Origin: Halobellus sp. LT62
GTDB lineage: Archaea > Halobacteriota > Halobacteria > Halobacteriales > Haloferacaceae
Assembly: GCF_037031285.1 (NCBI RefSeq)
Contig: NZ_JAYEZO010000002.1
Location: 1,178,001 to 1,242,000 of the forward strand
DNA length: 64,000 nt
Direction of reading: 5' to 3'
The notes under the pieces were generated by a model that was not told the DNA's origin, did no database searches, and saw nothing but the letters and a program-made list of their open reading frames with translations. Shown piece by piece: positions 44,082 through 46,420 of the stretch. Numbering within the stretch: the stretch's first letter is position 1; the number at the start of each line of letters is the position of its first letter. Position numbers and translations under genes: made by a program.

Positions 44082-44088
44082 TTTTATA
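44082..44088 (+). promoter_or_regulatory. TATA box TTTTATA upstream of aCPSF1
   Basis: A clear box A that would give a start near 44112, about 275 nt before the aCPSF1 ATG. This implies a long leader, unusual here where most promoters look leaderless. Confidence 0.55.
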
Positions 44089-44183
44089 CGCAGGCGGATC
44101 TATCTCGGAGCAAGCGGGTTTTCCCTGTCTCCCCACAGTCAGGACCGCCAGACATCGTCATTCGCGACGCACTACGTAGTCCT

Positions 44184-44393
44184 ATGCTCTCTCACGCGAC
44201 ACCGTCGTTCCACCTCACTCACGAGAACCCGGCGGTTCACTCCACTCACACGAACCCGTCGGGCCACTCCACTCACGCGACACCGTCGCCGTCCCCCGAC
44301 GGAGTGTGTGTGCGGTCGCGTCGACTGCAGCGACAGAGAACCCCGATCAACCGTCCGTCTGCGACGATCACGACGGAACGCTCTCAGTTATGA
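44184..44393 (+). CDS. Candidate 69-aa upstream ORF with nonapeptide repeats
   Basis: An open frame from ATG 44184 to a TGA that overlaps the aCPSF1 ATG (ATGA). Residues 2-37 are four 9-residue units rich in His, Thr, Ser and Pro, such as STHTNPSGH and STHATPSPS. It is not acidic and is unlike normal haloarchaeal proteins. No Shine-Dalgarno-like sequence precedes it. It could be a leader peptide coupling translation into aCPSF1, or a chance frame over a DNA repeat. Confidence 0.35.
   Translation: MLSHATPSFHLTHENPAVHSTHTNPSGHSTHATPSPSPDGVCVRSRRLQRQRTPINRPSATITTERSQL
44187..44294. repeat. Four tandem 27-bp repeats in the aCPSF1 leader
   Basis: Units at 44187-44213, 44214-44240, 44241-44267 and 44268-44294. 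The shared core is CACTCACxCGAxxCCGxCG, with substitutions between copies and no spacers. Twenty-seven bp is a multiple of three, so all units keep one reading frame. Confidence 0.75.
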
Positions 44394-46309
44394 GTTCAGT
44401 AGATACGCAACTCGAGGAGTTGAAAGCAGAAGTCACAGCGGAGCTCCCCGCCGACATCTCCGTGTCGGACGTCACCTACGAGGGGCCGGAACTGGTCATC
44501 TACACGCGCGATCCGAAGCGGTTCGCCCGAAACAGTGACCTCGTCCGCGACCTCGCGGGAAAGTTCCGCAAACGAATCACCGTCCGACCGGATCCAGCCG
44601 CGTTATCGCCGCCGGACGAAGCGAGGGACCGAATTCTCGACGTCATTCCGGAGGAGGCGGGCGTCACCGACCTCGACTTCCACGAGGACATCGGCGAAGT
44701 CGTCATCGAGGCCCAAAAGCCGGGAATGGTCATCGGCCGTCACGGCGCGACGCTGCGCGAGATCACCCAAGAGGTCGGCTGGACGCCCGAGGTCGTTCGG
44801 ACGCCGCCGATCGAGTCCTCGACGGTCTCGAACGTCCGCAACTTCCTCAAGCAGGAGCGCGACGAGCGCCGACAGGTCCTCGAACGGGTCGGCAGACAGA
44901 TCCACCGCGAACAGCTCTCCGACGAGGAGTGGGTCCGGATCACGACCCTCGGCTGTTGCCGGGAGGTCGGCCGCGCGTCGTTCATCCTCTCGACCGCCGA
45001 GACGCGGATCCTCATCGACTGCGGCGACAAGCCCGGTTCCGACGACGCCCCCTACCTGCAGGTCCCCGAGGCCCTCGGCGCGGGCGCGAACTCGCTCGAC
45101 GCGGTCGTGCTCACACACGCCCACCTCGATCACTCCGCGCTGATTCCGCTGCTGTTCAAGTACGGCTACGACGGTCCGATCTACACGACCGAACCGACGC
45201 GGGACCTGATGGGTCTGCTCCAACTGGACTACCTCGACGTCGCCGCCAAGGAGGGTCGCACGCCGCCCTACGAGTCGGAGATGGTTCGGGAGGCGATCAA
45301 ACACACCATCCCGATCGAGTACGGCGACGTGACCGACATCGCGCCGGACGTGAAGCTGACGCTCCACAACGCCGGACACATCCTCGGCTCGGCGGTCACG
45401 CACTTCCACATCGGCGACGGCCTCTACAACGTCGCGTTCTCCGGCGACATCCACTACGACGACACCCGGCTGTTCAACGGCGCGGTCAACGACTTCCCGC
45501 GCGTCGAGACGCTCGTGTTGGAGTCGACTTACGGCGGCCGCAACGACTACCAGACCGATCAGGAGGACGCCGAACGGAAACTGATTGAAGCGATCAACGA
45601 GACGCACGACCGCGGTGGGAAGGTCGTAATTCCGGCCTTCGCCGTCGGGCGCTCCCAAGAGATGATGCTCGTCCTCGAGGAGGCGATGCGCACGGGGAAA
45701 ATCCCGAGTATGCCCGTCCATTTGGACGGGATGATCTGGGAGGCGACCGCGATCCACACCACGTATCCGGAGTACCTCCGCGACGACCTCCGCGATCGGA
45801 TCTTCCACGAGGACGACAACCCGTTCCTCGCCGACGAGTTCAACCACATCGACGGCGGCGACGACGAGCGACAGGAGGTCGCAGACGGCGATCCCTGCAT
45901 CGTCCTCTCGACCTCGGGGATGGTCACCGGCGGCCCGATTATGTCGTGGCTGCGCCACGTCGGCCCCGATCCGGACTCGCGGCTGCTCTTCGTCGGCTAT
46001 CAGGCACAGGGAACGCTCGGGCGTCGCATCCAGAACGGGTGGGACGAGATCCCGGTGGAAGGCGACCGCGTCGGTCGCTCGGACACGCTGCAATTGGAAA
46101 TGGACGTCAAGACCGTCGACGGCTTCTCCGGGCACGCCGACCGACAGGGCCTCGAGAACTTCGTGAAGACGATGAACCCCCGTCCCGAGAAGATTCTCTG
46201 CGTTCACGGCGACGAGCGCTCGGTACAGGACCTCTCTTCCGGACTGTATCACGACTACAACCTGCGGACGTTCGCGCCGAAGAACCTCGAAACGTTCCGG
46301 TTCCGCTAA
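44390..46309 (+). CDS. aCPSF1/FttA: beta-CASP ribonuclease and transcription termination factor
   Basis: A 639-aa protein from the ATG at 44390. Residues 1-145 hold two KH domains (second one with VIGRHGATLREI). The metallo-beta-lactamase domain carries the HxHxDH zinc motif (LTHAHLDHSAL). The beta-CASP domain follows (VIPAFAVGRSQEMMLVLEEA) and the C-terminus ends in HADRQGLENFV and VHGDERSV. aCPSF1 (FttA) cuts nascent RNA at U-rich 3' ends and drives termination in archaea, as shown for the family. The leader is long and carries a 27-bp repeat array. Confidence 0.95.
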   Translation: MSSVDTQLEELKAEVTAELPADISVSDVTYEGPELVIYTRDPKRFARNSDLVRDLAGKFRKRITVRPDPAALSPPDEARDRILDVIPEEAGVTDLDFHEDIGEVVIEAQKPGMVIGRHGATLREITQEVGWTPEVVRTPPIESSTVSNVRNFLKQERDERRQVLERVGRQIHREQLSDEEWVRITTLGCCREVGRASFILSTAETRILIDCGDKPGSDDAPYLQVPEALGAGANSLDAVVLTHAHLDHSALIPLLFKYGYDGPIYTTEPTRDLMGLLQLDYLDVAAKEGRTPPYESEMVREAIKHTIPIEYGDVTDIAPDVKLTLHNAGHILGSAVTHFHIGDGLYNVAFSGDIHYDDTRLFNGAVNDFPRVETLVLESTYGGRNDYQTDQEDAERKLIEAINETHDRGGKVVIPAFAVGRSQEMMLVLEEAMRTGKIPSMPVHLDGMIWEATAIHTTYPEYLRDDLRDRIFHEDDNPFLADEFNHIDGGDDERQEVADGDPCIVLSTSGMVTGGPIMSWLRHVGPDPDSRLLFVGYQAQGTLGRRIQNGWDEIPVEGDRVGRSDTLQLEMDVKTVDGFSGHADRQGLENFVKTMNPRPEKILCVHGDERSVQDLSSGLYHDYNLRTFAPKNLETFRFR

Positions 46310-46350
46310 TCTGGCCGCCGATCGCCCTCGCGAGTCGGGGCCGGACGGTT

Positions 46351-46420
46351 TTCGACGGGATTCGACGGGATTCGGGTTTCGACGGGACCCGACGGGATCC
46401 GACGGGACCAGACGCGACTA
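46351..46420. repeat. Seven near-copies of a 10-bp unit (TTCGACGGGA)
   Basis: Starting at 46351, units of ten bases repeat (CGACGGGA with two variable bases) to about 46420; the third and last copies are diverged. The array lies between the aCPSF1 stop and the methylglyoxal synthase start. The 10-bp period matches the DNA helix. Confidence 0.55.

Follow-up and report, generated by a model that had tools for sequence, protein, structure and literature searches.

The window analysed here, a stretch of 64,000 nucleotides of Halobellus sp. LT62, carries on its forward strand the gene for aCPSF1/FttA (44390-46309; 639 amino acids). FttA, a homolog of CPSF73 and INTS11, is an essential protein and serves archaea as their general factor-dependent terminator. 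In a profile search the predicted protein matches TIGR03675 with 969.7 bits against a cut-off of 580, and its domains are PF17214 (KH_TffA, the KH domain of FttA), Beta-Casp and RMMBL. The start was placed by homologs at the ATG of 44390; a version of 667 amino acids given by the ORF finder, with a GTG start at 44306, was rejected on the same grounds. Among named relatives H. rufus and H. captivus stand closest, with 97% identity in aCPSF1. Upstream of the gene and on the same strand are a TATA box (TTTATA, within GAAGGCTTTTATAC) at 44083-44088 (GGCTTTTATAC), a predicted transcription start at 44110-44113, about 26 nt after the box as expected from archaeal promoter spacing, and a conserved element, AAGCGGGTTTTC, at the predicted 5' end of the RNA (44112-44123), whose U-tract occupies 44119-44122. 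They are followed by an upstream ORF (uORF) of 69 codons (44184-44393), which opens with the ATG at 44184. As a preliminary description of the locus had noted, its TGA (44391-44393) overlaps the aCPSF1 ATG at 44390 in the form ATGA. Four in-frame 27-bp tandem units (44187-44294) lie within the uORF, and its end falls in a proposed reinitiation region (44378-44393), a pyrimidine-rich patch followed by TATGA.

The upstream regions of aCPSF1 from 80 named GTDB genomes, from relatives and from further haloarchaea of the same order were used for comparison, giving 199 leaders (some genomes are present twice), from which greedy clustering at 70% identity selected 58 representatives. A motif of the (C)GG(G)UUUUC type is found in all 199 haloarchaeal aCPSF1 leaders examined, with UUCU replacing UUUU in a minority of about a quarter. 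The TATA box is present at a fixed distance from this U-motif in 194 of the 199 regions: in all 194 leaders measured, GUUUU or GUUCU (in one case GCUUUUC) lies 33-37 nt 3' of the box, and the other five differ in the box or the motif while visibly keeping the same layout. The TTTTC motif, about +8 to +12 from the predicted start, provides the single U4 of the leader in most representatives. The exact motif AAGCGGGTTTTC occurs once in the window, and its core shows no enrichment elsewhere in the genome (nine matches against 13 for a reversed-pattern control); a regulon sharing the 5' element was rejected on these counts. A leaderless promoter at the aCPSF1 ATG is unlikely, because the base table of the 58 representative leaders contains no AT-rich box about 27 nt 5' of that codon. 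The sole conserved promoter of the locus is the one upstream of the uORF, and both ORFs may share one predicted transcript. In H. volcanii 72% of the protein-coding transcripts lack a leader, and leaders longer than 150 nt are uncommon, at 97 cases (PMC4983044), which makes the aCPSF1 leader unusual; the preliminary description had singled out a long leader on a leaderless background, and this leader proves to be conserved across the haloarchaea.

The connection of the uORF with the aCPSF1 start, also proposed earlier, was borne out in the representative set. Of the 58 representatives, 54 possess an ATG-started ORF, 20 codons long or more, whose stop falls within -12 to +24 of the aCPSF1 start, against 10.7 ± 3.0 (maximum 22) in 300 dinucleotide-preserving shuffles of the same leaders. 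The exact ATGA overlap is seen in 40 of the 58, where the shuffles have a mean of 6.9 and a maximum of 15. As a crude control inside the window, 21 other gene-like ORFs preceded by 120 nt or more were inspected, and four of them show such an ORF. Among the representatives the uORF stops lie at +1, +5, +11, +14, +23, -5, -6 and -9 (+14 in Haloferax and -6 in many Halorubrum), and all three frames are used; therefore the place of termination is kept and the frame is not. The earlier proposal to align the leaders for a conserved frame gave the same answer, the frame changing between clades. The coupled uORFs begin at +45 or later of the predicted start, and in several leaders the stops fall 13-29 nt upstream of the aCPSF1 gene or far inside it. 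The three Halococcus leaders have no long uORF; a two-codon ORF, ATG GAC TGA, ends 11 nt before their aCPSF1 start, and one of them also has GGAGGTGA 5' of this ORF. In the two Haloquadratum leaders there is a relay of uORFs, in which the first, MLSHPL, closes with a TTATGA that overlaps the start codon ATG of the next, a uORF of 35 codons that itself ends in ATGA on the aCPSF1 start. Base composition near the start is also distinctive: in the 58 leaders position -8 is T in 69% and position -1 in 90%, compared with about 10-15% T elsewhere in the leader. A pyrimidine- and U-rich patch (-12 to -6; here 44378-44389) contrasts with the GC-rich leader in most haloarchaea and reads TTTTTC in Halorussus-like genomes. 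A second U-tract just before the start codon, considered as a terminator, was rejected: U is truly enriched there, but UUUU occurs in only six of the 58 leaders and is absent in the window.

The peptide itself leaves no trace of constraint. When 23 independent pairs of related uORFs were compared, codon positions 1, 2 and 3 differed in 112, 115 and 106 cases, against 34, 11 and 231 at the start of aCPSF1 in the same pairs. Among uORF codons with a single change, 116 are nonsynonymous where 115.3 would be expected without selection, and no purifying selection on the peptide is seen in these pairs. Judged by these patterns, the peptide is not selected; selection keeps a start codon, an open frame and termination at the FttA start. 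Because the peptide is neutral and the stop position is kept, it would be translation of the uORF up to the FttA start that matters, and not the product. The neutral peptide and the change of frame between clades also argue against a classical sequence-acting leader peptide, and neither conserved regulatory codons nor a stalling peptide, as in attenuators of the trp or erm type, was recognized among these uORFs. Of the leader-peptide control suggested in the preliminary description, the uORF at the FttA start thus stands, but not a role for the peptide sequence. It is also very unlikely that the uORF encodes a small functional protein in an operon with aCPSF1: besides the neutral codon pattern and the switching frame, the peptide of the window has no match in Pfam or NCBIfam, and uORF peptides are basic (median pI 10; rich in Arg, Thr, Ser and Pro), whereas haloarchaeal proteins are typically acidic. 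Such a protein would be consistent with the first residues, conserved within genera (MLSH, MPTPSR, MLCC), and with the ATGA overlaps that are typical of operon partners forming complexes (PMC10666635). The 27-bp units encode LSHATPSFH (44187-44213), LTHENPAVH (44214-44240), STHTNPSGH (44241-44267) and STHATPSPS (44268-44294), in agreement with the earlier account of four gapless units between the TATA box and aCPSF1 that share one frame of the 69-codon ORF as 9-residue repeats. Tandem Repeats Finder gives period 27, 3.6 copies (44191-44288), 77% matches and no indels, and the score of 105 is the highest among its 39 rows in the window. The emphasis formerly placed on these repeats and on a His-rich peptide is not sustained by the relatives, since both are peculiar to this genome. 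The array is single-copy, the 27-bp unit was not found elsewhere in the genome, and none of the other leaders in a set of 194 has a period-27 array according to Tandem Repeats Finder. When repeat number is compared across relatives, the four-copy array occurs only in this Halobellus, with at most two degenerate units in H. rufus and one in other Halobellus. Seven arrays (six distinct) are present in the leader set, all in the uORF region, with periods of 27, 21, 21, 21, 15 and 6, each divisible by three, which is what a need to keep the frame would predict. On this comparative evidence the array is an ordinary lineage-specific expansion and not a conserved regulatory array. An in-frame 27-bp tandem duplication would have lengthened the uORF from about 43 to 69 codons in this Halobellus, and would have been tolerated because the frame was kept. 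We give almost no credence to the idea that the repeats are a regulatory array of RNA or protein binding sites controlling FttA; they form the strongest tandem array of the window and hold short palindromes such as GAACCCGGCGGTTC, but the array is missing from all other leaders, nearest relatives included, and its single copy in the genome speaks against it as well.

Control based on RNA had been suggested alongside the leader peptide. In 31 of the 58 leaders, against 10.1 (maximum 18) in the shuffles, the 5-nt arm that precedes the U-tract has its exact complement downstream, usually as GCGGG...CCCGC, and 14 of the 58, against 4.8, show a 6-bp helix immediately 3' of the U-tract. This enrichment is in line with the suggestion, but consensus folding of five clade alignments gave almost no covariation (at most one covarying pair per clade), fold z-scores of single sequences are weak (-0.4 to -2.4), and the leader has no match in Rfam. 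Neither a covarying fold nor a known family, either of which would mark a structured cis-RNA or riboswitch, was thus found for the leader, and the data weakly suggest control of FttA by RNA structure. A leader that is mainly a structured cis-RNA, with a riboswitch-like or protein-binding fold and an incidental uORF, we regard as improbable; it was reduced to a rival reading because covariation and stability were not convincing, and it leaves the statistics of the uORF stops unexplained. The 5' motif could also act in the DNA, as a promoter or operator element recognized by a specific regulator, the leader and uORF only securing basal translation. Its fixed distance of 33-37 nt from the TATA box and its span across the predicted start fit an element of the promoter, but the downstream complement, which co-occurs in about half of the leaders, would be superfluous for it, and we consider this explanation unlikely. 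The leader comparisons establish the conservation of the 5' element, of the uORF and of its stop position, together with a neutral peptide and lineage-specific repeats. From the sequences at hand, a position-conserved, sequence-neutral uORF leader on the FttA gene is a real feature across the haloarchaea and apparently an undescribed one, as our literature search found no published description of control through the aCPSF1/FttA leader or of the control of FttA level.

The reading we prefer, with a probability of roughly 70%, is a coupled uORF leader that acts by position, has been lengthened here by the 27-bp units and likely serves FttA homeostasis; from the patterns above we infer its transcription start, the translation of the uORF, the coupling to aCPSF1 and feedback by FttA. 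Haloarchaeal aCPSF1 would be transcribed with a leader of about 135-360 nt, on which ribosomes would begin at a uORF located roughly 45-110 nt into the RNA, read through about 25-90 codons whose sequence is arbitrary and stop on the aCPSF1 start or within a few nt of it. The terminating ribosomes would reinitiate at the aCPSF1 start codon, and the synthesis of FttA would therefore depend on translation of the leader. The uORF would act through its start, its open frame and its stop at the FttA start, and not through a peptide. Termination-reinitiation at overlapping genes has been shown experimentally in H. volcanii, and of 14 overlapping gene pairs tested across H. volcanii and E. coli, 13 showed strictly coupled translation (Huber et al. 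2019, PMC6728339). At HVO_0685/0686 of H. volcanii, a gap of 13 nt cut reinitiation by 60% and a gap of 22 nt abolished it (PMC10666635). The arrangement of such coupled pairs, an upstream stop overlapping or near the downstream start, is the one found in the 54 leaders, 40 of them with the exact ATGA. As the stop positions fall in the experimentally permitted range, termination-reinitiation is the best-supported candidate for events at the FttA start in haloarchaea. The coupled pairs of H. volcanii (PMC6728339; PMC10666635) belong to the same group of organisms and likewise have an ATGA overlap or a gap of a few nt, but they are real protein genes, whereas the aCPSF1 uORF would be a non-conserved dummy in a leader. 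A start-site study in H. volcanii catalogued 16 leader uORFs in leaders of 150-250 nt, aCPSF1 not among them (PMC4983044, Table 2). These uORFs are also situated in long haloarchaeal 5' UTRs; they encode 15-31 amino acids with a low pI, unlike the basic FttA leader peptides. The missing aCPSF1 entry in that catalogue, the Halococcus leaders, the leaders with displaced stops and the UUCU variant count against the preferred reading.

The purpose of the coupled leader would most likely be FttA homeostasis. FttA binds U-rich RNA, with an optimum for the pre-termination complex at -30 to -36 relative to the 3' end of the RNA (PMC11616081), and the leader motif TTTTC resembles the intergenic terminators of Haloferax, which are T stretches ending at C (PMC7237163). 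FttA on the U-tract at 44119-44122 would put the polymerase at about 44150-44158, before the uORF start. As long as leading ribosomes do not stand in the way, FttA could bind the conserved 5' U-tract of leader RNA that is still being made or already complete, and therefore an excess of FttA or poor translation would lower FttA expression. Feedback of FttA on its own 5' U-tract, in the manner of a rho leader, is geometrically possible and appears plausible. A more specific version, which we put forward tentatively and hold to be possible though somewhat doubtful, is that FttA is autoregulated by attenuation in the leader: it would dock on the 5' U-tract when the polymerase has advanced about 40-45 nt, and escape would be limited to leaders with prompt uORF translation and a ribosome handed to the FttA start. 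If true, the FttA leader would correspond in archaea to the rho leader and would sense transcription-translation coupling. The E. coli rho leader (rhoL), a long leader with a short ORF, attenuates the synthesis of the termination factor Rho, and translation opposes factor-dependent termination. The two systems share a general termination factor, a long leader and a short ORF, but the protein and RNA signals of the rho leader are unrelated to those of FttA, whose autoregulation is only a proposal. Yeast NRD1 and vertebrate PCF11 autoregulate by premature termination (PMC7471841) and are similar as termination factors limiting their own synthesis, as proposed for FttA, but they do so without the uORF coupling proposed for the FttA leader. 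Policing of transcription-translation coupling by FttA is a published hypothesis (PMC11616081), which the same leader could be used to test. The leader also allows a genetic test in Haloferax of whether an archaeal terminator is controlled by its own action, like Rho or Nrd1.

Outside the haloarchaea the gene has another context. There, in 21 genomes from the same phylum, an ORF of about 205-240 codons ends 23-72 nt before the aCPSF1 start; the single ORF put to the test encodes the proteasome beta subunit (psmB; TIGR03634, 266 bits), and two others are visibly the same protein. A similar leader in methanogens and other non-haloarchaeal relatives was rejected, as aCPSF1 there follows psmB. The haloarchaeal leader thus takes the place of an operon position, and it may be speculated that the uORF stands in for the lost upstream cistron.

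A diverged second aCPSF1 paralog, 74% identical overall, is located on another contig of the same genome (about 1875930-1877843) and is preceded by a separate TATA box and by a leader roughly 130 nt long. The 5' part of this leader, GAACGATTTCGTCCGTTC, is conserved among the leaders from its own genome and from other Halobellus and may form a hairpin, and a mini-ORF, ATGTATGAGCACTAA, overlaps the start of the paralog. In the window, the aCPSF1 stop is followed at 46346-46418 by short tandem repeats with a 10-bp TTCGACGGGA-like unit, which precede a gene with an MGS domain (methylglyoxal synthase-like).
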